From: Alphaproteobacteria bacterium
Lineage (GTDB): Bacteria; Pseudomonadota; Alphaproteobacteria; CAAGCB01; CAG-977
Assembly: GCA_017616015.1 (NCBI GenBank)
Contig: JAFZYY010000009.1
Location: forward strand, 1-64,000
DNA: 64,000 nt
Direction: 5' to 3'
Shown: positions 42,074 to 61,164 of the stretch, in pieces
Layout of the letters: the number at the start of each line of letters is the position of its first letter
Position numbering within the stretch: position 1 is the first letter of the stretch
The notes under the pieces: generated by a model
Database searches by the model: none
The model's input: only the letters and a program-made list of their open reading frames with translations
What the model was told of the DNA's origin: nothing
Program-made: the position numbers and the translations under genes

Positions 42074-42823
42074 TTACACCTGTTTTAATTTACAGTTCAC
42101 AAAGATTTCGCATCCGGCTTGCGGAAAATACTTTGTCATCGCGTACAGTCCGTCAAGCAGATTGTCGTCTATCAGTTTGGAATCCAGCAGTTTTTGCATT
42201 TTCGGGTGATCGAACGGTTTGATGAAATAAGATCCTTTGTCGCAGATTTCCAGACCGTGCCGTTCAACGAATTCCGACAGGGAGTCCGTGTTGAACGTGC
42301 TGTGCCGCTGAAATTTTTTAGCGGAATCGGTTAATTCGTTTATGTCTTTTATCAGTCCGGCTTCATACGCCCACAACAGGAGGAAGGATCTTGAATTCGG
42401 GACGTTGATAAGCAGAACCGTGTCGTTGTTCAGCAAAGAAACGATTTTTTTCATTTCCGCGTCGGGATCGTTAAATTCGTGCAGCAAAGAGCTTAAGATG
42501 ACGAAATCGAACGGGACTTTTTTCAGTTCGTCGATTTTATTTTCGATGAAGTCTTTATACACGGTTATTTTTTCGTTTTTATTTTTAACGGCGGTATCGG
42601 CGAAAAATTCCGAAGGCTCGACGATAACGGCCCGGTCGTAGTCCTGATAATAGTTGAAGATGCTGTCCGTGCCGCAACCGATTTCCAAAACGCGCCGCGG
42701 TTTGTATTCGCCTAAGATTCCGAGAATGTTCTTTTTGCGAAATTTTGCGAGGACTTCTTCAAAAGAATAGCTTTTATCGCAGTAATCCTTTTGGTATCTG
42801 TCAATATCCCTTTGTTCGTTCAT
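42074..42823 (-). CDS. SAM-dependent methyltransferase
   Basis: 249 residues from the ATG at 42823. Class I fold with motif I RRVLEIGCGTDSIF near residue 43, acidic loop in VIVEPSEFF, and FVILSSLLHEFNDPD as motif post II. The substrate is not evident. In a cluster with phosphoramidate-type enzymes an O-methylation of the phosphoramidate or of a sugar is plausible, as C. jejuni needs methyltransferases for its O-methyl phosphoramidate. That link is inference. Start lies 5 bases after the beta-propeller gene. Confidence 0.85.
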   Translation of the reverse strand: MNEQRDIDRYQKDYCDKSYSFEEVLAKFRKKNILGILGEYKPRRVLEIGCGTDSIFNYYQDYDRAVIVEPSEFFADTAVKNKNEKITVYKDFIENKIDELKKVPFDFVILSSLLHEFNDPDAEMKKIVSLLNNDTVLLINVPNSRSFLLLWAYEAGLIKDINELTDSAKKFQRHSTFNTDSLSEFVERHGLEICDKGSYFIKPFDHPKMQKLLDSKLIDDNLLDGLYAMTKYFPQAGCEIFVNCKLKQV

Positions 42824-42828
42824 CTTTT

Positions 42829-43752
42829 TTATTCCCTTACCAATTCCGCGTAACCGAAGCCGGTTTTGCCGCAACCGTTGCCGTTGTAGAACAGATACGT
42901 TTTATCACCGTAAACGAAACGGTAGCCGTAACTGACGTTTTCGCTGTCCCACCCCGTTTCGGACAGACCGATGCCGACTTCGTCGTCTTTTCTGGTCCAA
43001 TGAACGCCGTCGTCCGATTCCGCATAGCCCAGATAATAGCCGCGGGAATACGTCCGTATCGAATAAATCATTTTGTATTTTCCGCCGTCTTTCCAGACGT
43101 GCGGGCGACCGAAGCCGTGTTCGTCCGCGCTTGCGTAATCCATGCACTGAACCGGCTCTTTGTTCCATTGAATGCCGTCGTCGGATTCCGTATACATCAT
43201 TGTGTAAAGCGGCTTTAATTTGCCTTGCGCCGTCGTCCAGCCGTCTTTGAACGATCCGACATACCACATTTTAATTTTGCCGTTATCGTTCAGCACCTGT
43301 ATGCCGCAACGGGCGTAAATTTCGTTGCCGCGACGGTCCAGCACGGGCGACTGCGAATACCGTTTGAAAGTGCGACCGCCGTCTTTGCTGACCGCCAGTC
43401 CGCCGAACATGTAATAAGGAACGTTGACGCCTTGCTGGAAGCCGACGTAATACATATAAAGTTTGTTTTCGACTTTCAGCAAATCAAGCGCGACGCAACC
43501 GTGATCGTCAAAGGCGCCTGCTCGTCCGACGTCCAGAACGGGGAGCTCGGAAACGGCGTAAATTTCAGACGGATTTTCCGGATTGACATCGACATAACCA
43601 ACGCGGCCGACAAGCTCTTTGTCACAGATATTTACGAAAATCCGCAGAGTACCGTTTTTCTGCAGGAAGGGGATCGGACAAAGCGCAAATTGATGCCGCC
43701 AGCCGTTTTCGCCGTTTGGCGCATAAATCAGGCCTTTTTTTATCCATTTCAT
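42829..43752 (-). CDS. Five-bladed beta-propeller glycosidase-like protein (GH32/43/130-like)
   Basis: 307 residues from the ATG at 43752, which shares a base with the stop of the NeuD-like gene (TAATG). Repeated blades contain AVSKDGGRTFKRYSQSPVLD, MYTESDDGIQWNKEPV and YAESDDGVHWTRK, and GRPHVWKDGGKYKMIYS, typical of GH43/GH32/GH130-like proteins found in O-antigen clusters. No signal peptide is seen. Whether it is hydrolytic, phosphorolytic or only binds sugar is unclear. Confidence 0.78.
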   Translation of the reverse strand: MKWIKKGLIYAPNGENGWRHQFALCPIPFLQKNGTLRIFVNICDKELVGRVGYVDVNPENPSEIYAVSELPVLDVGRAGAFDDHGCVALDLLKVENKLYMYYVGFQQGVNVPYYMFGGLAVSKDGGRTFKRYSQSPVLDRRGNEIYARCGIQVLNDNGKIKMWYVGSFKDGWTTAQGKLKPLYTMMYTESDDGIQWNKEPVQCMDYASADEHGFGRPHVWKDGGKYKMIYSIRTYSRGYYLGYAESDDGVHWTRKDDEVGIGLSETGWDSENVSYGYRFVYGDKTYLFYNGNGCGKTGFGYAELVRE

Positions 43753-44808: not shown

Positions 44809-46854
44809 TTATTTGCCGGGCGTCTTGTCGTCAAAGACGAATTTTATTTTTTTATCGATCGCGACCTCTTTTATACCCGTTTCCAGACTGTAAAAGGTTC
44901 CGTTGTCCTCTACCAGAAATTTCAAATCGTATTTTCCGGTGGGGACGTCTTTCGCGATAAAATTGAATCCGAAGAAATACACGCCGCTGTCGAGGACGAG
45001 GAACGGAACGTCCCGTGTGACAAGGTATGTCCCTTTCTTATTCGTAAGTATGAAATACGTTTTCACGGGTTTCTTGTTTATGCCGTCGGGCGCGTTTCCT
45101 TCTCCGGAAACGGTCAGCATTCCGTTTTTGCCGTTTAGCGTGTAGTAATATATTCTGACTTTCAGCGGTTTTGCGGCCGTGATGTTTTTTTTGTCGAACC
45201 GGCTTTTTTTCAGATAAGCGGTTTTTATTTCGTTCAATTTGTTCAGGCGAAATTCCTCAAGGATTTTTTTGTTGTTTTCCTCTTCGGGGATATCGAGCTT
45301 TTTATCGGTGATGCCGGCCGAATAAAAAATCAAATCGGATACGTCGGAAACGTCGGGATAAATGTCCTCGATAATCTTCATTTCCTTTTGTTCCTGATTG
45401 AAGTTTTTATACATCAGCAGGGGATTCGCCACGTTTTCCCGTCCTCTCTGCAGAGGGGAAAGCAGCCGGTTCATTCCGTGATCGCTCATGAAAATAACGG
45501 CCGTTTTGTCGTAGATTCCGGCTTTTTTCAGGCTGTTGAGGTAGTTTTTCAGCATCGTCATGTATAATTTCGCCGTCAGTTCGACGGGATCGTCTTTTCC
45601 TTCGCTGATATTTTCGACCTCGAAGCGCTCGTTGAGCATATAAGGTTCGTGCAGTCCGTGCAGGTGGTAATACTTAAAGACTTTCTTTTCGTTATCCGTC
45701 GAAATTTTATCCCTGAATTTGTTATAGAAATCGTCCTCTACGTAAAAAGGTTTCGCAAAAGGCAGAAATTTCTGAGTCTTGGCAAGGGTTATATGTGTCA
45801 GGAACTTGTGCGGCGATTTTTTGCGTATGACGGGAAAGGCGTGAAAGGCGACGACTTTCTTTATCAGTTTTCTGTACAGCTTATTCGATTTTCCCTGACT
45901 GTTTCGCGGTTTTAAAACAAGATTGTCCATAACGGAAGGGGACAGATACATAATGTTTGACAGCCACGGATAAATATAGTTTGTCCAGCCGTTTTTCTTT
46001 AAAACCGGCAACAAAGCCGTGTCGGCGGAATAAATCTTTTTCAGAGTGGCGTAATACTGTTCGTTGTGTTGAATGCTCCCATCAAGATTGATGCTCGTGA
46101 ACAGCGCGGGAATCGCGGCTGATGTTCCTTGGCTCCCGCGGGAGCTGACGGCGTTTTTGTAAAACTCGAAATCCTTGAATATTTCCGCGTATTCGGGATA
46201 TTTTTTCAACAATTCTTCAAAAACGCCCTGTCCGAAACCGTCCATCAGAACAACCGCAATGTTTTCGTTTTTCGAATAGACGTTGTATTCGGCTAAATCG
46301 AAACCGTAATACTTGAAAGAATAAATTCCGTTCTGTTCCTGATTTGCTTCAAAATTGTAAACGGACGGGGTTGTCGCAAAAACGATTGTCTGCATCACGA
46401 CGAGAAGCAGGCTTGCCTTGCGCAGAAACGGCAGAAAAGCCTCTTTTTTGAAGAAAACAACGGCGGTGATAATCGACACAAGCAGAAAGACAATGTCTGC
46501 GACGGCCGCTCCGATATGATTTTTCACGTTAAACGGCTCCCCGTTTAACAGTCCGACCTGCGGCATGATGAACAGATATTCGAAAAAGACGAATACGCCG
46601 GCGATGAACAAAAGGGACTGAACGCCCTTGTTCAGCTTTTCGTTTATGAAAAAAGAGGCGACGGACGCGGCAAGGGAAACAAGCAAAGCGACGGCCGCCG
46701 TCGTTATCACTTTCCGGATTAAAACGGAATAATCAACGGACAGTTCGGAATAATTCGCGATAAAGAAATTGAGAGGAATAAACAGAAAAACGGTCAGCGC
46801 GAAAAACAGGCTGACGGGTAATTGCCGGACGGTTAGTTTAATATTGTTGCTCAT
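44809..46854 (-). CDS. Membrane alkaline-phosphatase-superfamily transferase, copy 1 (LTA synthase/EptA-like)
   Basis: 681 residues from the ATG at 46854 (AAGGA site). Four or five membrane helices at the N-terminus (to about 190) are followed by a periplasmic sulfatase-fold domain: metal Asp in VVLMDGFGQG, probable nucleophile Thr in GTSAAIPALF, metal ligands in FMSDHGMNR. The C-terminal 150 residues look like a beta domain. LtaS, OpgB and EptA of this superfamily move phosphoglycerol or phosphoethanolamine from lipids to glycans. Here a similar phospho-decoration of the surface polymer is likely. It is a tandem duplicate of the next gene; identity is high over the whole length except the nucleophile loop and C-terminal domain. 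Confidence 0.8.
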   Translation of the reverse strand: MSNNIKLTVRQLPVSLFFALTVFLFIPLNFFIANYSELSVDYSVLIRKVITTAAVALLVSLAASVASFFINEKLNKGVQSLLFIAGVFVFFEYLFIMPQVGLLNGEPFNVKNHIGAAVADIVFLLVSIITAVVFFKKEAFLPFLRKASLLLVVMQTIVFATTPSVYNFEANQEQNGIYSFKYYGFDLAEYNVYSKNENIAVVLMDGFGQGVFEELLKKYPEYAEIFKDFEFYKNAVSSRGSQGTSAAIPALFTSINLDGSIQHNEQYYATLKKIYSADTALLPVLKKNGWTNYIYPWLSNIMYLSPSVMDNLVLKPRNSQGKSNKLYRKLIKKVVAFHAFPVIRKKSPHKFLTHITLAKTQKFLPFAKPFYVEDDFYNKFRDKISTDNEKKVFKYYHLHGLHEPYMLNERFEVENISEGKDDPVELTAKLYMTMLKNYLNSLKKAGIYDKTAVIFMSDHGMNRLLSPLQRGRENVANPLLMYKNFNQEQKEMKIIEDIYPDVSDVSDLIFYSAGITDKKLDIPEEENNKKILEEFRLNKLNEIKTAYLKKSRFDKKNITAAKPLKVRIYYYTLNGKNGMLTVSGEGNAPDGINKKPVKTYFILTNKKGTYLVTRDVPFLVLDSGVYFFGFNFIAKDVPTGKYDLKFLVEDNGTFYSLETGIKEVAIDKKIKFVFDDKTPGK

Positions 46855-46898
46855 AGAGGGTATCCTTTCATGCAGGTAAAAGATTTTTGCCGCGTTTG

Positions 46899-48926
46899 TC
46901 AATTATTTGGTTTCTTATCGTCAAAAATAAAGTTTATTTTTTTATCGACCGTAACCTCTTTTATGTTCGTTTCCAGATTGTAAAAGATTCCGTCGTCCTC
47001 GACCAGAAATTTCAGGTCGTATTTTCCGGCGGGGACGTCTTTCGCGATAAAGTTGAATATGAAATAAACGGTATCGTCCGTTCCTCTGCTGAACAGGGGC
47101 TTTTGATTCAAAACATAGGAGTCTTTTTGATTTCTGACAAGAAGATGCGTTTTTCCCCCGCCGTTTTTAAGGTTGCCGGAAAGAGGCAGTTTTGTTGAAA
47201 CGGTTATCGTTCCGTTTTTGCCGTTTAACGTGTAACTGTATATTTGCGCGGGCAAATCCGATGATACGATTTTATTGAACCGGTCCCGTTTCAGATAAGC
47301 GTTTTTGATTTCCCGGCTTCGGTTCAGGCGGCTTTGCGCAAGACGGTTTTTATTAAATTCCTCATTTGAAATGTCGAGCTTTTTATCGGTGATGCCGGCC
47401 GAATAAAAAATCAAATCGGAAATGTCGGCAATACCGGGATAGATGTCCTCGATGACCTTCATTTCCTTTTGTTTCTGATTGAAATTTTTATACATCAGCA
47501 AAGGATTGACCCCTGTTTCCCTTCCTCTTTGCAAAGGCGAAAGCAGACGGCTTGTTCCGTGGTCGCCCATGAAAATAACGGCCGTTTTGTCGTAGATTCC
47601 GGCTTTTTTCAGGCTGTCGAGGTAGTTTTTCAGCATCGTCATGTATAATTTCGCCGTCAGTTCAACGGGATCGTCTTTTCCGTCGCTGATGTCAGTGATT
47701 TCAAAGCGCTCGTTGAGCATGTAAGGTTCATGCAACCCACGCAGGTGATAGAATTTAAAGACTTTTCTTTCGCCGTTTGTCGGAATTTTATCCCTGAATT
47801 TATTATAGAAATCGTCCTCATGGTAGAAAGGCTTTATCAGGGGCAGAAAATATGATGCCTTGGCAAGGGTTATATGCGTCAGAAACTTGTGCGGCGATTT
47901 TTTGCGTATGACGGGAAAGGCGTGAAAGGCGACGACTTTTTTTATCAGCTTTCTGTAAAGTTTGTTCGACTTTCCCAGGTTTTCTTTTGCGCTTAAAACC
48001 AGATTGTCCATAACGGAAGGGGATAGATACATGACGTTTGACAACCACGGATAAATATGGTTCGTCCAACCGTTTTTCTTTAACACGGGCAACAAAGCCG
48101 TGTCGGCGGAAAAATTCTTTTTCAGAACGGTGTAATACTGTTCGTTATGAGCGGCGGTTTCGGGCCTGATTCCCGAAAAAAGTTCGGGGACGGCAAATGA
48201 TGTCGCTCCGCCGGCGCTGAGGGCGTCTTTGTAAAATTCGAAATCTTTGAATATTTCCGCGTATTCGGGATATTTTTTCAACAATTCTTCAAAAACGCCC
48301 TGACCGAAACCGTCCATCAGGACGACCGCGATGTTTTCGTTTTTCGAATAGACGTTGTATTCGGCTAAATCGAAACCGTAATACTTGAAAGAATAAATTC
48401 CGTTTTGTTCCTGATTCTCCTGAAAATTGTAAACGGACGGATTTGTCGCAAAAACGATTGTCTGCATCGCGACGAGAATCAAACTTGCCTTGCGCAGAAA
48501 CGGCAGGAAATTCTCTTTTTTGAAGAAAACAACGACGGCGATAATCAAAGCAAGCAAAAAGACAATGTCCGCGACGGCCAAACCCGCGTGATTTTTTATG
48601 TTAAACGGTTCGCCGTTTAACAGTCCGACTTGCGGCATGACGAACAGATATTCGAAAAAAACGAACACGCCGGCGATGAACAAAAAGGACTGAACGCCCT
48701 TGTTCAGCTTTTCGTTTGCGAAAAAGGAGGCAACGGATGCGGCAAAGGCAATAAGCAAAGCGACAACCGCTCCTGTTATCACGTTTCTGATTAAAACGGA
48801 AAAGTCGACATTAAGTTCGGAATAATTCGCGATAAAGAAATTGAGCGGAATAAACAGAAAAACGGTCAGTGCGAAAAACAGGCTGACGGGTAACTGCCGG
48901 ACGGTCAGCTTGATGTTGTCGTTCAT
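46899..48926 (-). CDS. Membrane alkaline-phosphatase-superfamily transferase, copy 2
   Basis: 675 residues from the ATG at 48926, which overlaps the stop of the FemAB-like gene by 4 bases; an ATG at 48941 is possible. Same topology as copy 1: N-terminal membrane bundle, VVLMDGFGQG, ATSFAVPELF as the nucleophile loop (Thr kept) and FMGDHGTSR. The bundle and the middle are nearly identical to copy 1, but the loop after the nucleophile (PETAAHNE) and the last 150 residues differ, suggesting different acceptors or donors. Confidence 0.8.
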   Translation of the reverse strand: MNDNIKLTVRQLPVSLFFALTVFLFIPLNFFIANYSELNVDFSVLIRNVITGAVVALLIAFAASVASFFANEKLNKGVQSFLFIAGVFVFFEYLFVMPQVGLLNGEPFNIKNHAGLAVADIVFLLALIIAVVVFFKKENFLPFLRKASLILVAMQTIVFATNPSVYNFQENQEQNGIYSFKYYGFDLAEYNVYSKNENIAVVLMDGFGQGVFEELLKKYPEYAEIFKDFEFYKDALSAGGATSFAVPELFSGIRPETAAHNEQYYTVLKKNFSADTALLPVLKKNGWTNHIYPWLSNVMYLSPSVMDNLVLSAKENLGKSNKLYRKLIKKVVAFHAFPVIRKKSPHKFLTHITLAKASYFLPLIKPFYHEDDFYNKFRDKIPTNGERKVFKFYHLRGLHEPYMLNERFEITDISDGKDDPVELTAKLYMTMLKNYLDSLKKAGIYDKTAVIFMGDHGTSRLLSPLQRGRETGVNPLLMYKNFNQKQKEMKVIEDIYPGIADISDLIFYSAGITDKKLDISNEEFNKNRLAQSRLNRSREIKNAYLKRDRFNKIVSSDLPAQIYSYTLNGKNGTITVSTKLPLSGNLKNGGGKTHLLVRNQKDSYVLNQKPLFSRGTDDTVYFIFNFIAKDVPAGKYDLKFLVEDDGIFYNLETNIKEVTVDKKINFIFDDKKPNN

Positions 48927-49864
48927 AGAGTTATGTTCCATTCATAAAAATCATAAGCGACGCCACGGCCGCCGAACATTTCCTTTTGACCGATCAGACC
49001 GCGGTTCAAAACGGTTCCGCTTTCTTCCGTGGAAATGCCGAAGTCAAAGTAGGTTTTCCCTGCGCAATAAGTGTTAATCAGGTAGTCCGTGACCAAATCC
49101 AAAGCGCCGATATCGCGTCCTTCCTCCGAATTGGCGATGTACTGCGCGTGAACCGTTTGCGGCGTGTCGAAAATCAAAACGCCGGCCATCATTTCTTCGC
49201 CGCGGTAAGCGCAATACAGCTTGATGTTGTCCGGAAAATGTCCGGCCAGAAGAGCCAGCTCCGCGCCCGTGTGGACGGGTTTCGTACCGTGATGAACGGA
49301 CAAAACCTCCGTCAGCAAAGAAATATAGCCGTCGTAATCCGTGCTTGGGCGCACTTCCAGACCGCTTTTAACCGCTTTCTTTACTCCGCGTCGGCGCAAT
49401 TCCGAAAACCTGATTTTGTCGGGCAGGTAAACCGCCGTCGAAATGTCGCGGCGGACAAGCGTCGCGCCGTTTCTGAACAAAACGTACAAATCCTCGTCCG
49501 ACGGATAGGTGAAATAGACGGACGGCACGCGTTTGTAAAGCAGCTTTTTAACGCCTTTTTCCGCTAAAAAGGCTTTCAGCGCGTCAAAGACGTCCAACAT
49601 TTCCGGCGTTGTCATTTTGCGGTCGGAAATGATGCCGCCGTACGTCAGTCCGCCGTGAGAACGAACCTCTTCGCCGTGCAGGGAAGCGGGCAGGACGGCG
49701 ATGAGTTTGCCGTCTTTGTAAAACATCAGCGAAAAATCCGTAAAGCGGTCGGCGTGATATTCGACGTAGCCGCGTTTAAGCATAAACGTCCCGTTTTTCG
49801 ACGCGTCGATGAATGCGTCCCATTCCTGCCGCTTTTCAGAATTGTACGGGAGTACGTCAATCAT
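48923..49864 (-). CDS. FemAB/GNAT-like acyltransferase
   Basis: 313 residues with two GNAT-like halves. LRRRGVKKAVKSGLEVRP is the typical basic helix before the second domain and DIGALDLVTDYLINTY plus FDFGISTEESGTVLNRGL resemble FemAB/BioF2-like proteins of polysaccharide clusters. Such enzymes transfer aminoacyl or acyl groups. Next to KAS III and ACP genes it is a candidate for moving the ACP-built acyl chain to the amino sugar. Follows the KAS III gene by 4 bases. Confidence 0.75.
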   Translation of the reverse strand: MIDVLPYNSEKRQEWDAFIDASKNGTFMLKRGYVEYHADRFTDFSLMFYKDGKLIAVLPASLHGEEVRSHGGLTYGGIISDRKMTTPEMLDVFDALKAFLAEKGVKKLLYKRVPSVYFTYPSDEDLYVLFRNGATLVRRDISTAVYLPDKIRFSELRRRGVKKAVKSGLEVRPSTDYDGYISLLTEVLSVHHGTKPVHTGAELALLAGHFPDNIKLYCAYRGEEMMAGVLIFDTPQTVHAQYIANSEEGRDIGALDLVTDYLINTYCAGKTYFDFGISTEESGTVLNRGLIGQKEMFGGRGVAYDFYEWNITL

Positions 49865-54149: not shown

Positions 54150-55508
54150 CTACTTGTTTAATTCGGAAATCAGATAATCTGCGACCGCTTCGCCGGCATG
54201 ACCGAAATTCACGGCATACTTTGCCGTCAGAGCGTCAAAATCACGCGCGGCCGTTGACGACAGCGCCGCTTTGACGCGTTCGACAATCTGTCCTATATCT
54301 TCTTTTGACACTTTATCGCCAATATCGGTTTCCATCGTGCTTTGCGCCAGCAAATCCTTCAAATCTTCGTATTCATAGGACGACGTGTCGGAAACGGGCA
54401 TTTCCAACGTGATGACGGGGCGTTTATACAGCGCGAAGAAATCCATGCGGACGCTTGAAGTATCCGAAATCATCAAGTCGGATTTCGCCATGCTGACGCT
54501 GCCGTTGACCTCTTCGTCCCAAACGACGTTGGAAAATTCACTCAATTCCCGCTTAAAGCCGTCGAATTTTTCCTTTTCGACCTTCAACGACTGCGGGTGG
54601 GGACGAATAATCACGTTGAATCCCGCTTTTGCCAAATCCCGCACGAAATCTATGCCGTAAACCGTCAGACAGCCTTTCGTCCCCCACGACGGCGCGATCA
54701 GAATCGTCTTGCCGTCCGTGTCGGCGTTCATTCCTTCGCGTTCTTTTGCCAGCTCGTCCAGATACGGCACGCCGACGGGGACGAGTTTCTTTTCCTTCAG
54801 TCCGCGTTTTTGCTCTATCAGCCGGATTTGCGGATTCATATACTCGCCCGCGGTCAGGACTTCGTCATAGTGATCCAGCGATCCGTGATGATACCAGGCG
54901 TAAGTGTAATCCCCGAACGAATGCCAGATATGAATTAAGGAACGAACCTTTCCGGATTTCTTTATCGGATAGTTTTCCGTGCCGATATTCGGCGTCGTCG
55001 ACAGCAGAATATCCGCTTCCAGATTGTTCATTTTGGCGAACGCCATCGTTCCGTCGCCGATATACTTTGCCTCCATCAGATCGTTTTCGATCGTCAGAGC
55101 CGGATCGTGAACGTCCATCGAATAATAGGCAAACGGCTGTTTTCTGGCGATTAGAGCTTCAATGACGGGCTTAAAGGTTCCCCAATAGTTTTTGCCTTCG
55201 CTGAAAATCACCAAAGTTTTGCCGTTTCCCCGTTCGAAAGAAGAATCCTTCTTTTTGCGCAAAATCTTGTAAAAAAGATTTTTAGCGGCATAAACGACAG
55301 CGCCGATCAGACTGATAACGACATAAATCAACGCATTGCCGGTGCCGGGATCAAGATAGGCATGAGCATTTTCAGCGCTGACGATTAAAAAGCAAAAACT
55401 TAAAAACCATAATCTGTAATCAAGAATAAACCGTTGACAGAATTTACGGTGTGGCAGGCTTAATGATTTGTATACGGGGGGGGGTATCAGTCTATTGGCG
55501 TTATTCAT
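54150..55508 (-). CDS. CDP-glycerol:glycerophosphotransferase-like protein with poly-C start region
   Basis: 452 residues. Two N-terminal hydrophobic segments, LWFLSFCFLIVS (about 33-45) and ALIYVVISLIGAVVY (about 58-73), flank an AYLDPGTG motif. The remainder resembles TagB/TagF transferases: LIHIWHSFGDYTYAWYH, APSWGTKGCL, IIRPHPQSLK and ISDTSSVRMDFFAL, the conserved HxxG and DTSS type motifs. Such enzymes transfer glycerol phosphate from CDP-glycerol. Here another CDP-linked phospho-group is possible. Codons 9-11 are a C9 run, so any single-base slip removes the N-terminus from frame; I see no in-frame ATG until well into the catalytic region. Confidence 0.82.
   Translation of the reverse strand: MNNANRLIPPPVYKSLSLPHRKFCQRFILDYRLWFLSFCFLIVSAENAHAYLDPGTGNALIYVVISLIGAVVYAAKNLFYKILRKKKDSSFERGNGKTLVIFSEGKNYWGTFKPVIEALIARKQPFAYYSMDVHDPALTIENDLMEAKYIGDGTMAFAKMNNLEADILLSTTPNIGTENYPIKKSGKVRSLIHIWHSFGDYTYAWYHHGSLDHYDEVLTAGEYMNPQIRLIEQKRGLKEKKLVPVGVPYLDELAKEREGMNADTDGKTILIAPSWGTKGCLTVYGIDFVRDLAKAGFNVIIRPHPQSLKVEKEKFDGFKRELSEFSNVVWDEEVNGSVSMAKSDLMISDTSSVRMDFFALYKRPVITLEMPVSDTSSYEYEDLKDLLAQSTMETDIGDKVSKEDIGQIVERVKAALSSTAARDFDALTAKYAVNFGHAGEAVADYLISELNK
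55476..55484 (+). repeat. G9 homopolymer tract near the start of the CDP-glycerol transferase-like gene
   Basis: Nine G on the plus strand (C9 in the coding strand) eight codons after the ATG at 55508. Slippage would switch the gene off or on. It is the longest homopolymer G/C run I noticed in the window. Confidence 0.85.
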
Positions 55509-55512
55509 TATT

Positions 55513-56295
55513 TTATTCCTTAACCATCAGATTTTGCGTCAGTTTGCCGTTTTTCAAGGCTTCGGACAGGCGTTCGTAGTCCTGCGCCGTGTCAAATTCC
55601 GCCCAGCCGCCCGCGGAAACGATCGCTTTGACCGCCATTCCCGAACGAATTAATTCGGAGAGCAGGTCTGTCATATAGCCTTTCTTAAATTCTTTGCCCG
55701 ACTGCGGCCACGGCGCGTTTTCCTTTTTGCGCGTGCCATAAATGTCAAAAGCGGATTTTAAACCGACTTTCGAAAATTTGATCAATCCGATATAGCGGTA
55801 GTCTAACCCTTCGGAGGAATTCGTTTCACGGCCTAAATCCGTGATATTGCCGTTTTCATCGACGAACAGCGTTTCCAAATCGAAATCGACCGTATCGTAG
55901 CGCAACTTCCAAAGTTTTTTCCAATCCTTGTCAACGGCGACGCCTATATCGGCTTTTGCTTCGACGCATTTTTTCGCTAATTCCGGCGTATACATAATGT
56001 CGGAATAGGCAATCAACACGTCGTCGTTCAGAAAAGCTTTGGCGCACATAATCGTTTCCAACATATTCGTCGTCGCGTATTCGGCGTTATGGTAATATTT
56101 CACGCCGGCATACGCTATTTTCTCGCTCTTATATCCGGTCGCAACGGCAATATCGCCGATCCCCGCCGCGCGCAGCGTTTCAATCTGACGCTCAATCAGC
56201 GTCCTGCCGTTTACGTTCAGCATTCCCTTCGGAAGGTTTTCGGTATACTTTCCCATGCGCGTGCCGCTACCCGCCGCCAAAATCAACGCCTTCAT
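55513..56295 (-). CDS. Nucleotidyltransferase, Cj1416-like (CTP:phosphoglutamine cytidylyltransferase candidate)
   Basis: 260 residues, GT-A-like nucleotidyltransferase. LILAAGSGTRMGKYTENLPK (residues 4-23) is the nucleotide loop with its Lys, followed by TNMLETIMCAKAF and IAYSDIMY with a metal Asp. Length and motifs fit LicC-type cytidylyltransferases and C. jejuni Cj1416, which makes CDP-L-glutamine from L-glutamine phosphate and CTP. It overlaps by 4 bases with the amidotransferase gene, as would suit consecutive steps. A sugar-1-phosphate substrate cannot be ruled out on sequence alone. Confidence 0.78.
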   Translation of the reverse strand: MKALILAAGSGTRMGKYTENLPKGMLNVNGRTLIERQIETLRAAGIGDIAVATGYKSEKIAYAGVKYYHNAEYATTNMLETIMCAKAFLNDDVLIAYSDIMYTPELAKKCVEAKADIGVAVDKDWKKLWKLRYDTVDFDLETLFVDENGNITDLGRETNSSEGLDYRYIGLIKFSKVGLKSAFDIYGTRKKENAPWPQSGKEFKKGYMTDLLSELIRSGMAVKAIVSAGGWAEFDTAQDYERLSEALKNGKLTQNLMVKE

Positions 56296-56951
56296 AAAAG
56301 TAATCCTTTATTGTCGATAAAAGTCCGTATCATTTTCCGCGTTTTCAAATACGCTTCCCCGTCCGAAAAACGACGTTCCGGGTGATACTGAAACGCCAGA
56401 ATTTTCTTTTCGGGACAAACAAAAATTTCGACAGTTCCGTTTTCCCCGTCAAAGAACAACGGCGTCAGCTCTTTCGCCAGATTTTCCGTTTTGATAAAAT
56501 CGTTGTGATAGTGATTGACGCTCAGCGTTTCCGTTTCGGATTTGATCGTATGGTCGGTTCCGCAGGTTCGCTTTTCTTTGCAGACAAAGTTTTTAACCGT
56601 TTTTCCGCCGAAAAAAGCGTTGATGAACTGCATGCCGCGGCAAATGCCCAAAACGGGGATTTGATGCTTCAGAGCGTATTCGAACAAAAAGCGCTCCGTT
56701 TCGTCGCGCGCCGGCTGCGGGCTGACGGAAACGGTTTCCGTATAACATTCCGCGGACAGGTCTCCGCCGCCGGTCAGAATAAGCAGTTCCGCCTGTTTTA
56801 AAACGCTTTCGTCGGGACGCGCGAAATTGGAAACGGGGACAAGCGAAACGCTCATTTCCGTAAAATAATCGACATAACTTTTTTCCAGACAGTCGCAGGG
56901 AACGCCGTAAGCGTCCTTTATTTCCCGCTGTGTGATCAAAGCCCGCGTCAT
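56292..56951 (-). CDS. Class I glutamine amidotransferase, Cj1417-like (gamma-glutamyl-CDP-amidate hydrolase candidate)
   Basis: 219 residues, stand-alone GATase1 fold of the gamma-glutamyl hydrolase (PuuD-like) group. The triad is C104 (LGICRGMQF), H190 and E192 (FQYHPERR). In C. jejuni, Cj1417 of this fold cuts CDP-L-glutamine into cytidine diphosphoramidate and glutamate. Placement between the Cj1416-like gene and the PEP-synthase-like kinase supports the same role. PuuD-like polyamine breakdown is an alternative with no supporting neighbours. Confidence 0.78.
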   Translation of the reverse strand: MTRALITQREIKDAYGVPCDCLEKSYVDYFTEMSVSLVPVSNFARPDESVLKQAELLILTGGGDLSAECYTETVSVSPQPARDETERFLFEYALKHQIPVLGICRGMQFINAFFGGKTVKNFVCKEKRTCGTDHTIKSETETLSVNHYHNDFIKTENLAKELTPLFFDGENGTVEIFVCPEKKILAFQYHPERRFSDGEAYLKTRKMIRTFIDNKGLLL

Positions 56952-56981
56952 TTCTCTCCCTGTTTTCGGAATAAGAGTATT

Positions 56982-58310
56982 TTATAAAGCAAAATTATTC
57001 GTTTTCAACAAATTCCACGCTTCATCGGACAAATTTTCCTTTTCGGGATAATAGCAGTATTCGCCCGCTCGCTCTTCAATCTGACGGATAAAGTCCTGAT
57101 CCTCGAAATACCGGTACGCCCCTATGTTCGCCGCGGAAACCGACGGATCGAAAATCGATTTCGGATTGACGTGACGGGAAGCGTCCATGCCGATAAAATT
57201 CATAATCTTCTTCGTCGTTTCGTCATATTTCAAAACAAGATCCTCGAACCGAACCAGCAGAGTGTCCGGATCCGGATTTTCAAAAGCGTATTTGATATGA
57301 TACGTCGAAAAAGTCACGTATTTGTCTATGGTTACCGGCAAAAGGGATATGTCCTGACGGAAAGCGGACACAAACTGATCTCTCGGGTCCCGCCAAACGA
57401 TAATCCGTTTAATCGGCTTATCCATAAAAGAATTAAGTCTGTTCAATACGTAAGTGGGCGCCAGCGCCAAAAAACAGTAAAATTCTTTGCTGGACTGCAA
57501 ACGGAATAAAGAACGGATGTAGTCCTTCGCGTGATTATTAAAAGCGTCCGGACTCATTTCCTTGTATCTGTAAAAAACATACTGCCCGACGCCCTGATGA
57601 CGCAGAAAGGAACATTTATCAAACGTGTCCTCTTTTACTCTGCGCACGGGATATTGCTTATCCCGCATAAACGCCCGTGTGTAATCGTCCAAATCAAGGA
57701 CGCTCGTTATAAACTTTATTGAATTATCCAAAAATTTCCGATTATAAAAATCAGGATCGCTTTTATCGTTCGAATACCGGTAAATCAAAGAAATAAAGCC
57801 TTTTATCGCGCGATCTTTTTCCAAAAGGGTTCCCGAAGAAAACTTATCCATAAAATCAAAAAACGACGGTTCCTGAAACAACGACATCTCGGCTCTGTTT
57901 AAGGGCTTCAGAGGGGTATGTCCGAAAACGGTCGTATTATCGAATTCCTTAAAAAAATCCGAAAGCGCCGAAGCGCCGGAAATGTAAAGACCGTTAACGG
58001 AAACGATTTGTTTATAGTTTGAAACAACCGGCTTTTCTTCATCTTTTTCAATAATTGGCAAAGGAGGATCTTTGGCGGGACACGCCCTTATCGACCGGAT
58101 TTCTTTCAGTAAAACGCCTGTTATCCCGAACGTCAGCATTTCCTGAATCCGTTTTTCAAGCTCTTCGTCTTTTTTATTCAGCTGCTTTGAAAGATGCTTC
58201 CAGACTTTGTATTCTTTTTTCGATAAAAACGTCTTTTCGCCCGTAGCGGCCAAATATTCCATTTTTTTATTCAAATGTTTCCATATCTTATATTTTGCTT
58301 TTTCGAACAT
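56982..58310 (-). CDS. Sulfotransferase-fold protein
   Basis: 442 residues from the ATG at 58310 (GGAGAAGAAC site). The first 55 residues are basic and hold two copies of a YKxWKHL motif (7-13 and 34-40). The sulfotransferase core has a divergent 5'-phosphosulfate loop VNGLYISGASALSDFF (105-120) and a good 3'-phosphate motif RIIVWRDPRDQFVSAF (302-317), then LVRFEDLV. These folds use PAPS, a 3'-phosphonucleotide. Since the C. jejuni pathway makes a 3'-phospho form of cytidine diphosphoramidate, this protein could use such a donor. That is inference; ordinary sulfation of the glycan is the alternative. Confidence 0.75.
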   Translation of the reverse strand: MFEKAKYKIWKHLNKKMEYLAATGEKTFLSKKEYKVWKHLSKQLNKKDEELEKRIQEMLTFGITGVLLKEIRSIRACPAKDPPLPIIEKDEEKPVVSNYKQIVSVNGLYISGASALSDFFKEFDNTTVFGHTPLKPLNRAEMSLFQEPSFFDFMDKFSSGTLLEKDRAIKGFISLIYRYSNDKSDPDFYNRKFLDNSIKFITSVLDLDDYTRAFMRDKQYPVRRVKEDTFDKCSFLRHQGVGQYVFYRYKEMSPDAFNNHAKDYIRSLFRLQSSKEFYCFLALAPTYVLNRLNSFMDKPIKRIIVWRDPRDQFVSAFRQDISLLPVTIDKYVTFSTYHIKYAFENPDPDTLLVRFEDLVLKYDETTKKIMNFIGMDASRHVNPKSIFDPSVSAANIGAYRYFEDQDFIRQIEERAGEYCYYPEKENLSDEAWNLLKTNNFAL

Positions 58311-58350
58311 GTTCTTCTCCTTTAATCTGCCTTTTCGAAGCCGAAAACAT

Positions 58351-61164
58351 TTACAGGCTGTCCTTGCGGACGATGCCGTTTTTGCAGTCCAGGACGCACG
58401 ATTTCGCGCCGGCAAGAGAAGAATAAATATGCTCTCCGCAGCCGATCGCGGCGGGCAGGCCGAATTCGGCGCATCGGATTGCCATGTGCGAAGCGACGCC
58501 GCCGTATTTTGTAATCAATCCTTTGATCTTTTTGGAAAAGATCCAGTCAAAGCCGGGGTCGGCTCTTGTCACGCAAACGATTTTTCCGTCAATGTCCATT
58601 GTCTTTTCGTCTTCCAGAAAGACGACTTCGCCGCTTGTCGTTTTTTCCGTAATGAAATTCGGCCTCATGCTGGCAATGCGAATGACGTCCAAACTGTCCG
58701 CGTTCAAAATAACGTCGGGCAGAACGAACAAAGACGCTTTTTCAAAGGCGATTTTTCTCGAATCTCTCAACGTTCTGATAAAATCGGCGCGCTCCCAATC
58801 GTTTTCATAAAAAGACAAAGCGGAAATATCGCGAATGTCCAGATAAGCCATATCCTCGCGCGTAAAGCCCAGTTTTTCGCCCAGCTTTGCCAGACATTCG
58901 ATTGCGAGGGATAGGATTTTCGTGAATTCGAACTTGAACCATTCCCGCATTTCAAACGCGGTTTTCATGAACGACTGGAAATATTCCGCCGTAAAATCCA
59001 GACCGTATGCGTCAAGAACCGCTTGCAGCCGTTTGTTGTCAAGGCTCTTCGCGGCGGATTTCGGCATATCCTTTTCTTTTACGGCGGCGGATTTCGTGAA
59101 GTCCATTTTGTCGTAGCGTTCTGTCGTGATGTCGTACGTTCCCGAACGCAAATGCCCGTATTTCAGATTAAACTCGTCCGTCGTCATGCGCTTGTTCAAA
59201 AACGCGTTCATGTCGCGCTGAAAATCGGAAGCAACCGTTTGCACCGTCAGCATGAACCGTTCCGTTTCGTCCTGCGTGAAGAATCCTTTTTCGGCCAGAG
59301 TGCGCAAAAACGATTTTGCGATGAAAGCGAAACGCGCCTGTCTGGAAAAATGCGGCGTCGCGTTCAGCTTTAATTCGCGCAGTAAAATTTGAATATAGGA
59401 AATCAACTGTTTGACCGTTACGCTTTCGCACGCGCATTCTTTTTCGATTTCCGCGCGCACCGTTTCCGCCTGCAGCAAATCTTTTTTATCTTCGCGCAGA
59501 ATGTCGAAGAAACGGGAAACGGAATCCTTTGTCAATCCGAATAAAGCGTTCCGGAACGATTGGATTTCTTCGTCGGAAAAAGAATTGTCCTTCAGTTCTT
59601 TCAAAGCCTCGTCCGTTTTGAAGTCAAAGCAGCTGAACACTATTTCGAATTCGATTTTATCATGCGCCGTCAGGTTCTTTTCCAATTTCGAGCGATAATA
59701 AGCAACCAGTTTTTTTGTCAGCGTTTCGCTCAATGGAGCCGGAATCAGGCTTCTGAACGAATATTCAAGAGAAATATAAGGCTTGTTGCCGATCTGATAC
59801 ATCAGGTTGTGCGGCACGCTTTTGTATCCCAGCGGTACAAGCCCTTCGTTCCACGCGCGCGCCGTGATGATGTCCTTGTATAAGGAAAAAGCGAGTTCTT
59901 TCGGATTTGATCCGATAATTTCCGCCGGATTCCAAAACGCCATGTCCGACAGCATCATTGTTACGCCGCTGTACGCGTCTTTAAAGTCGGCATAGCGCTG
60001 TTTTTCTCTGTCCAGTTCCGCAAAAAAATCCTCGTCATTGAGGTTCTTTTTGAATTTGTATGCCGCAGCTAACGGACGGACTTGAAAAATCACGACGCTG
60101 CCATCGTTTAAAACGGCGAACTCAATGTCCAAAATCATGCCGGCCAAGACGGATTGTATTTCTTTGATGGCCGTTAAGAGATTCCGCCATCGATCCGGCA
60201 GTTTTGAAATATCCGCCTTATGCGAAATCCTCAACGATACGCCGCCGCGTCCGGCGGTTACGCTGTCGCTTAATCCGTCGTCTTCGTAATTGATCAGATA
60301 ATACGGGCGGTTTTTGTTGATGTCGCGCGTAAAAAGAACGCCGCAGACGGCAATATTTTCCGTTTGTGTCTGAATTAAAATCTGCTCGTCCGAATTGTCA
60401 AAGTCCGGATTGGCTTTCAGATAAGAGTTTCCGACGGTCTTAACGGCGTTCAGGACGGCTTCTCTGTCAGAAACGTCAACATTTAGAACGGATTCATAAA
60501 AACCGGCGTTTGATTTGTCGTATCCGTCTTCCTGCGAACAAGACGATCGGACAACGATTTTTCCGGCGCCGAACGTTGTTTTTATCTTTTCGTACAAAGC
60601 CGACGCAGAATCCGCAAGCTCCCGCGGCGTAACGACTAAAATCTTTTCGATTTTCGACTTTGTCAGCAGTTCCTTTAACGCCAGCAGCGTGTTTGCCTTT
60701 GTCGAAACAAGCGTGTTCCGCGTATTAACAACCTTGGCCTGCTTGTTCAAAGTTTCAAGAATATTCTCTAAAGACAACTTTTCGTAATACGGCAAAAAAG
60801 AAACTTCGATGTTCAGATCTTTCAAAGCGCTTGATGAAATCAAATGCTCCCAGTTTTTGCTGGCATACAACGTTATCGCATCATTCGGGTATTTTAAGCG
60901 CAGTTCCTTTAAATTCGCTGTCGGATCAAAGCCGGTTTGCCTGATGACTTTATCTATGCTTTTGATATTTAAAAGCGTTTCTTTGCGTTCCTGAAAAGTC
61001 GATAAAATCTGCCCGAACCAAGCTTCGGCCGATTTGTCGTCAATCAGTCCGAAAATTAACAAATCCGCTTCGGATTTCGCTTTTTCGAAAGCCTGCATGT
61101 GCCCGATATGCAAAAGATCCGCAACCCCGAAACTGTAGGAGATTTTTTTTATGTTTTTTTTCAT
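58351..61164 (-). CDS. Cytidylyltransferase / PEP-synthase-like kinase fusion (Cj1418-like glutamine kinase candidate)
   Basis: 937 residues from the ATG at 61164; starts at 61188 or 61233 would add 8 or 23 residues. Residues about 1-145 are a TagD/RfaE-type nucleotidyltransferase: FGVADLLHIGH with HIGH at 19-22. Residues about 170-367 are a PPDK-type ATP-grasp domain: VRSSCSQEDG (205-214), GVLFTRDI, and DIEF to FQVRP (360-364). A long central domain follows, then the phosphohistidine domain GGVASHMAIRCAEFG with His near 893. C. jejuni Cj1418, L-glutamine kinase, has the ATP-grasp and His domains but to my knowledge no such N-terminal domain. First gene of the cluster. Rifampin-phosphotransferase-like activity on another small molecule is the alternative. 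Confidence 0.8.
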   Translation of the reverse strand: MKKNIKKISYSFGVADLLHIGHMQAFEKAKSEADLLIFGLIDDKSAEAWFGQILSTFQERKETLLNIKSIDKVIRQTGFDPTANLKELRLKYPNDAITLYASKNWEHLISSSALKDLNIEVSFLPYYEKLSLENILETLNKQAKVVNTRNTLVSTKANTLLALKELLTKSKIEKILVVTPRELADSASALYEKIKTTFGAGKIVVRSSCSQEDGYDKSNAGFYESVLNVDVSDREAVLNAVKTVGNSYLKANPDFDNSDEQILIQTQTENIAVCGVLFTRDINKNRPYYLINYEDDGLSDSVTAGRGGVSLRISHKADISKLPDRWRNLLTAIKEIQSVLAGMILDIEFAVLNDGSVVIFQVRPLAAAYKFKKNLNDEDFFAELDREKQRYADFKDAYSGVTMMLSDMAFWNPAEIIGSNPKELAFSLYKDIITARAWNEGLVPLGYKSVPHNLMYQIGNKPYISLEYSFRSLIPAPLSETLTKKLVAYYRSKLEKNLTAHDKIEFEIVFSCFDFKTDEALKELKDNSFSDEEIQSFRNALFGLTKDSVSRFFDILREDKKDLLQAETVRAEIEKECACESVTVKQLISYIQILLRELKLNATPHFSRQARFAFIAKSFLRTLAEKGFFTQDETERFMLTVQTVASDFQRDMNAFLNKRMTTDEFNLKYGHLRSGTYDITTERYDKMDFTKSAAVKEKDMPKSAAKSLDNKRLQAVLDAYGLDFTAEYFQSFMKTAFEMREWFKFEFTKILSLAIECLAKLGEKLGFTREDMAYLDIRDISALSFYENDWERADFIRTLRDSRKIAFEKASLFVLPDVILNADSLDVIRIASMRPNFITEKTTSGEVVFLEDEKTMDIDGKIVCVTRADPGFDWIFSKKIKGLITKYGGVASHMAIRCAEFGLPAAIGCGEHIYSSLAGAKSCVLDCKNGIVRKDSL

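Follow-up and report, generated by a model that had tools for sequence, protein, structure and literature searches.

Glycans decorated with phosphoramidate have been shown only in Campylobacter, where the modification has effects on resistance to serum, on invasion, and on recognition by phage (PMC6429109, PMC3907429), and the question raised by the locus described here is whether an alphaproteobacterium encodes the same phosphorus-nitrogen (P-N) chemistry. The reactions of the C. jejuni pathway to O-methyl phosphoramidate (MeOPN) have been described (PMC6429109, PMC10971088), and the four genes that MeOPN requires have been traced across species (PMC3907429). The DNA analyzed, referred to as the window, is a stretch of 64,000 nucleotides from the genome of a gut-type alphaproteobacterium (assembly GCA_017616015.1, contig JAFZYY010000009.1). 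An earlier reading made without database searches (the sequence-only reading) had described three enzyme types within four consecutive genes and had proposed them as counterparts of Cj1418, Cj1417, and Cj1416. All three were indeed found, each intact, in four consecutive minus-strand genes at 55513-61164, and the genome as a whole looks like it carries a complete gene set for placing phosphoramidate on surface sugars. We estimate a probability of roughly 80% that these genes encode a pathway for phosphoramidate decoration like that for MeOPN in Campylobacter, with its parts at two places in the genome. The four genes and the parts of the kinase are as follows.

58351..61164, minus strand: fused protein of 960 residues, a TagD/CCT-like domain plus a predicted Cj1418-type L-glutamine kinase (NF004508), with its ATG at 61164
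60718..61164, minus strand: N-terminal CTP_transf_like (TagD/CCT-like) domain of the kinase (PF01467, 31.8 bits)
58369..60720, minus strand: glutamine-kinase region, a PPDK_N ATP-binding domain and a C-terminal phosphoenolpyruvate (PEP)-utilizer phosphohistidine domain (NF004508 match in the genome)
58486-58488, minus strand: predicted catalytic His codon in the swivelling domain of the kinase (alignment to H737)
56982..58310, minus strand: sulfotransferase-like protein of 442 residues, proposed phosphoramidate transferase (PF00685)
56292..56951, minus strand: class I amidotransferase, predicted gamma-glutamyl-CDP-amidate hydrolase of the Cj1417 type (NF045546 as best model)
55513..56295, minus strand: LicC-like nucleotidyltransferase, predicted CTP:phosphoglutamine cytidylyltransferase of the Cj1416 type (C. 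jejuni 414 alignment)

The kinase matched NF004508 over its full length with 757 bits (curated cut-off 501; 1162-1164 bits for the C. jejuni 414 kinase), and the models for PEP synthase and rifampin phosphotransferase (Rph) gave it 29-61 bits, far under their own cut-offs, and both identities were rejected. NF004508 was taken to represent the Cj1418 family because the neighbors of the C. jejuni 414 match correspond to the known MeOPN cluster; the supporting neighbors are an amidotransferase that passes NF045546 plus, for C. volucris and C. jejuni W1, proteins matching NF058596 (O-methyl phosphoramidate transferase) above its cut-off. Cj1418 itself is a demonstrated L-glutamine kinase (PMC10971088). 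The window and C. jejuni 414 kinases are 34% identical over 802 columns, and of the 100 columns that are nearly invariant in the family, the window protein retains 97. One of these holds H916, which is the counterpart of H737 in the C. jejuni 414 kinase, is invariant across 16 kinases, and is presumably the catalytic His addressed by known mutants. By these scores and signatures, the window kinase is assigned to the Cj1418 family.

For the amidotransferase, NF045546 (gamma-glutamyl-CDP-amidate hydrolase) was the best NCBIfam model at 70 bits, under its cut-off of 250, with the C. jejuni 414 protein reaching 327 bits. The residues C104, H190, and E192, which the sequence-only reading had called intact, do not vary in an alignment of 15 cluster amidotransferases including those of Campylobacter, and the window protein retains these and nine further invariant positions; among the 12, E. 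coli PuuD is without G62, E86, and R193. A profile of cluster amidotransferases made without the window protein scored that protein at 125 bits and PuuD at 75, and a PuuD identity was rejected. The LicC-like protein is 35% identical to its C. jejuni 414 counterpart over 250 columns (141-150 bits) and has the 30 invariant columns of the family. LicC is its best match in the PDB at only 62 bits, and by this difference LicC itself was rejected as its identity. The profile comparison with Cj1416-1418 thus favored these types over sugar nucleotidylyltransferase, PuuD, and rifampin phosphotransferase, with the active-site residues present, and largely upheld the proposed counterparts at the level of sequence families.

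The gene context of the kinase was then examined in 25 independent loci for which a kinase match was the sole criterion of retrieval and which came from plasmids, the class of the window, and Campylobacter. Kinase, amidotransferase, and LicC-like genes occur together in 24 of these loci and the kinase scores above its family cut-off; the trio is therefore more than a chance grouping. An APS-kinase-like gene (APS, adenosine 5'-phosphosulfate) is present in 19 of the loci and a methyltransferase related to that of Campylobacter in 16. NF004508 was above its cut-off in 7 of 12 Campylobacter genomes (the named ones having been reached through a 16S primer pattern) and in 16 of 385 sampled genomes of the window's class, or 4% of the species sampled. 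Production of cytidine diphosphoramidate by the trio is supported by these family and context data.

The sequence-only reading had seen no Cj1415-type kinase. A candidate for it does exist outside the trio operon, on contig C8 of the same genome, which measures 2.09 Mb and is 98% complete. This is the one clear APS-kinase-family gene of the genome (C8:15086-15607), in an operon (L019) that encodes a glycerophosphotransferase-like protein (C8:15600-16778, an interpretive assignment, as the protein is without a Pfam match), the APS-kinase-like protein, a methyltransferase, and a CysQ above the TIGR01331 cut-off. As for the Campylobacter protein (275 bits), the best NCBIfam model of the C8 kinase is PRK05541. 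At the site of the FISP motif in E. coli CysC, the protein shows TIS-M/L, as trio-linked kinases do, and it is 37.5% identical to the C. volucris protein versus 30% to E. coli CysC. From its family and context, the C8 gene may encode a Cj1415-like kinase acting on the 3' position of cytidine diphosphoramidate. Its neighboring methyltransferase is 52% identical (278 bits) to one of the methyltransferases of the C. jejuni cluster. The sequence-only reading had mentioned a methyltransferase in the cluster, probably the one at 42074-42874 of the window; the enzyme similar to the C. jejuni one is that on C8. Of the 12 genomes that represent the family, the remaining 11 have neither the APS-kinase-like gene nor a full-length glutamine kinase. 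Neither a Sat-type ATP sulfurylase (PF01747) nor CysD was found in the genome, where the sole PAPS_reduct-family match is DndC-like (CysN was not searched). Since no ATP sulfurylase was found, an ordinary supply of APS or 3'-phosphoadenosine 5'-phosphosulfate (PAPS) looks absent. The DndC-like gene lies on contig C15 (L022:585-3230) paired with a DGQHR-type gene, suggesting a DNA phosphorothioation system.

In the pathway we propose, the window kinase would act as an L-glutamine kinase, phosphorylating the amide nitrogen of glutamine at the expense of ATP; the LicC-like enzyme would join phosphoglutamine to CTP to give CDP-L-glutamine; and the amidotransferase would hydrolyze this to glutamate and cytidine diphosphoramidate. 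The basis for these three steps is the family to which each enzyme belongs, together with its conserved active site. The APS-kinase-like enzyme of C8 would then add a 3'-phosphate, giving a PAPS-like donor (family and context), from which the sulfotransferase-like enzyme of the window, or its paralogue on contig C15, would move phosphoramidate onto a hydroxyl of a glycan or lipid. The adjoining C8 methyltransferase would O-methylate the group, a step based on its identity to the C. jejuni enzyme and making a methylated end product likely, and CysQ, next in the operon, would strip the 3'-phosphate from the released nucleotide. The transfer and CysQ steps are inferred from chemistry and gene context, and both the surface location and the glycan acceptor are assumed.

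At the transfer step, the genome departs from Campylobacter. C. jejuni has two transferases, and transferases of low similarity have been thought possible (PMC3907429). The C. jejuni enzymes Cj1421 and Cj1422 (NF058596) carry DUF2972 (PF11186), for which no match was found in the genome carrying the window; the control genomes were negative too, and Pfam detects the domain in Campylobacter proteins. The candidate in the window is instead a Sulfotransfer_1 protein (PF00685, 27.4 bits against a cut-off of 22, covering profile positions 31-185 of 255) that resembles Cj1421/Cj1422 in predicted role, in having two copies per genome (the C15 paralogue is 73% identical), and in an RDP motif. Proteins with a sulfotransferase domain are likewise encoded close to the trios of Azospirillum, G206, G219, and G097. 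From the chemistry and the gene context, we propose this protein as a candidate transferase that would take phosphoramidate from a 3'-phospho-CDP donor. Just one clear relative was found outside, 42% identical to it and encoded in genome G210 within a phosphonate operon (L109:2075-6613). There the relative heads the operon, directly preceding a cytidylyltransferase-PEP mutase fusion and a phosphonopyruvate decarboxylase, and an iron-type alcohol dehydrogenase is also encoded. Tentatively, and with somewhat less than an even chance of being right, the gene and its paralogue may represent a new transferase class that moves unusual phosphorus groups from a cytidine donor, phosphoramidate here and phosphonate in G210, with the phosphoramidate donor 3'-phosphorylated like PAPS and recycled by CysQ. 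If true, P-N and phosphorus-carbon (P-C) decoration would both have taken over the old machinery of sulfate activation.

Several observations weigh against the proposed pathway. The kinase deviates at three positions that are nearly invariant in its family (F433, L465, and N483), the amidotransferase has diverged to about 31-33% identity and lies under the NCBIfam cut-off, and the C8 kinase falls just under the PRK05541 cut-off (124.9 versus 127) and is given no resolved placement by the APS-kinase-like tree, which has long branches. The two halves of the pathway are on different contigs. Profile comparison of the sulfotransferase-like family with DUF2972 gave a probability of 5% and aligned one RDP motif only, and homology between the two is not claimed; a single-sequence structure model of the sulfotransferase-like protein had a predicted local distance difference test (pLDDT) score of 37 and was not used.

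Four other explanations were considered, of which the most serious keeps the trio as the source of cytidine diphosphoramidate and changes only what follows. A CDP-glycerol glycerophosphotransferase-type enzyme, encoded either at 54150-55508 of the window or at C8:15600-16778, might transfer directly from cytidine diphosphoramidate, with the sulfotransferase-like gene otherwise employed. The family chemistry would suit this, as these enzymes attack the beta-phosphorus of a CDP donor and CMP leaves, and the window gene (PF04464) begins 4 bases beyond the LicC-like gene. In Vibrio alfacsensis (L041), whose locus yielded no APS-kinase-like gene, a PF04464 protein likewise directly follows the trio, and G358 encodes a GPT1 relative in the vicinity of its trio. 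The family is, on the other hand, common in the synthesis of teichoic-acid-like polymers and may only build the acceptor, and the APS-kinase-like, methyltransferase, and CysQ operon, which within the family accompanies the kinase in this genome only, would be left without a role. Glycerophosphotransferase-family proteins are a real alternative as transferases, if on balance a considerably less probable explanation than the proposed pathway. Another explanation, in which the sulfotransferase-like gene encodes a standard PAPS-dependent enzyme, the cluster makes a sulfated glycan, and the phosphoramidate genes act separately, appears unlikely. It would agree with the Sulfotransfer_1 score above the Pfam cut-off, with the APS-kinase-family protein in the genome, and with cysN and cysD beside the V. 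alfacsensis kinase operon, but not with the failure to find a Sat-type ATP sulfurylase or CysD in a 98% complete genome or with the position of the sole clear outside relative in a phosphonate operon.

The trio might also have shifted in substrate, the kinase to a different amide or an amino acid and the LicC-like enzyme to phosphocholine or another phosphoalcohol, so that the end product is no phosphoramidate. Such a shift could account for the long stem branch of the window and G358 kinases in the tree, the three unusual substitutions, the extra nucleotidyltransferase-like domain on the kinase, and the PDB match to LicC. Against it, the trio genes remain together with their family signatures kept, and the same genome has a Cj1415-like kinase and a methyltransferase near that of the C. 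jejuni cluster; we regard it as improbable, to much the same degree as a sulfated glycan. A simple misreading of generic families, with the kinase as PEP synthase or rifampin phosphotransferase, the amidotransferase as PuuD, and the LicC-like protein as a sugar nucleotidylyltransferase, could appeal only to the generic Pfam domains of the trio (PPDK_N, Peptidase_C26, and NTP_transf_3), and the family-specific scores, the leave-one-out profiles, and the conserved gene trio make it very improbable indeed. The proposed phosphoramidate pathway is preferred over all of these.

The trio belongs to a compact minus-strand run at 54150-61164 that ends with one more gene.

54150..55508, minus strand: CDP-glycerol glycerophosphotransferase-family protein (PF04464, 42.5 bits, cut-off 22.1), alternative candidate transferase or enzyme of acceptor-polymer synthesis

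Kinase and sulfotransferase-like genes are separated by about 40 bases and the sulfotransferase-like and amidotransferase genes by about 30, and the amidotransferase and LicC-like genes overlap by 4 bases. The neighborhood downstream of the run is a glycan-type locus, encoding a YidC-like protein, an FdtA-like isomerase, a FabH-like protein, an Acetyltransf_6 protein, a family 2 glycosyltransferase (GT2), and a DegT-type aminotransferase, the types of the last two being interpretive assignments and that of the aminotransferase backed by further analysis. Two similar sulfatase-superfamily membrane proteins are encoded side by side at 44809-48941 of the window, an apparent tandem duplication.

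The cytidylyltransferase-like domain at the start of the kinase, at residues 24-172 or so, retains its HIGH motif and has a degenerate ISTT-type motif; its PDB matches are choline-phosphate and glycerol-3-phosphate cytidylyltransferases. This TagD-like fusion is common to the kinases of the window, G009, and G358. The kinases of V. alfacsensis and G219 (L041:7341-10349 and L092:8268-11297) instead begin with a degenerate LicC-like domain. The presence of two unrelated nucleotidyltransferase-like folds at the same end of the kinase suggests a shared need, perhaps, and this is speculation, the handing of N-phosphoglutamine to the cytidylyltransferase.

In the kinase tree, the window protein pairs with that of G358 (100/100), and both stand far from the Campylobacter clade, which rules out recent transfer from Campylobacter. 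The nearest trio found to that of the window is also that of G358, a reduced genome of 0.9 Mb in which the kinase relative is broken into two frames, followed by intact amidotransferase and LicC-like genes (L111:8993-11802). In G009, from another genus of the window's family, a frame of 291 codons (L021:1158-2033) beside a NeuB-type glycan cluster corresponds to the start of the fused kinase and is 83% identical to the window; it is a relic of the pathway.

Named bearers of the trio are Campylobacter, Azospirillum lipoferum 4B, Agrobacterium vitis, V. alfacsensis, and the cockroach-gut deltaproteobacterium Smac51. The last four share the gene order kinase, amidotransferase, LicC-like gene and, unlike the window, have varied partner genes. 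With the relatives in Azospirillum and Agrobacterium, the alphaproteobacterial placement of the window agrees only loosely, and a 16S signature of Alphaproteobacteria, tried on a genome whose 16S gene was itself not located, gave no match. On the plasmid of A. vitis (L043:7905-12994), the trio is followed by LysE and CDP-alcohol phosphatidyltransferase genes and preceded by asparaginase, TauD, and tRNA-ligase-like genes, and the product is perhaps a secreted phosphoramidate small molecule. On the V. alfacsensis plasmid, cysN and cysD adjoin the kinase operon (L041:4487-6892).

In the C. jejuni MeOPN pathway, Cj1415-Cj1418 are accompanied by methyltransferases beside Cj1418; each of the four biosynthetic enzymes has a homologue in the genome studied here, as do the nearby methyltransferases, with catalytic positions kept. 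The genome differs in the two places that its pathway genes occupy, the cytidylyltransferase-like extension of the kinase, the presence of a sulfotransferase-like gene within the operon, a separate CysQ adjoining the Cj1415-like kinase, and the modest identity of the trio (31-35%). Protein types are also shared with sulfate activation and transfer (CysND, CysC, sulfotransferase, and CysQ), namely the APS-kinase family, the sulfotransferase-like protein, and CysQ; unlike in that system, no ATP sulfurylase was found here and the proposed donor is CDP-phosphoramidate. The Fom1/PntC-type cytidylyltransferase/PEP mutases of phosphonate operons have an N-terminal CTP_transf_like domain that resembles that of the window kinase, and the one in G210 adjoins the sulfotransferase-like relative, but these systems perform P-C rather than P-N chemistry.

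The suggestion that P-N chemistry extends to this lineage is sustained as far as cytidine diphosphoramidate is concerned, for which production is supported by sequence. Two qualifications apply: the family is widespread in other bacteria, which makes this lineage one of many, and the proposed transfer protein differs from that of Campylobacter. A search of open-access papers found no literature on a phosphoramidate pathway outside Campylobacter. What appears new here is the kinase fusion and the new candidate for the final transferring enzyme. Through the sulfotransferase-like proteins, the use of a 3'-phosphorylated donor and the fold that performs the transfer become directly testable, and trio-bearing bacteria offer non-pathogenic sources of phosphoramidate enzymes. 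With its genes in several proteobacterial groups, P-N chemistry is probably older and more common than has been thought.

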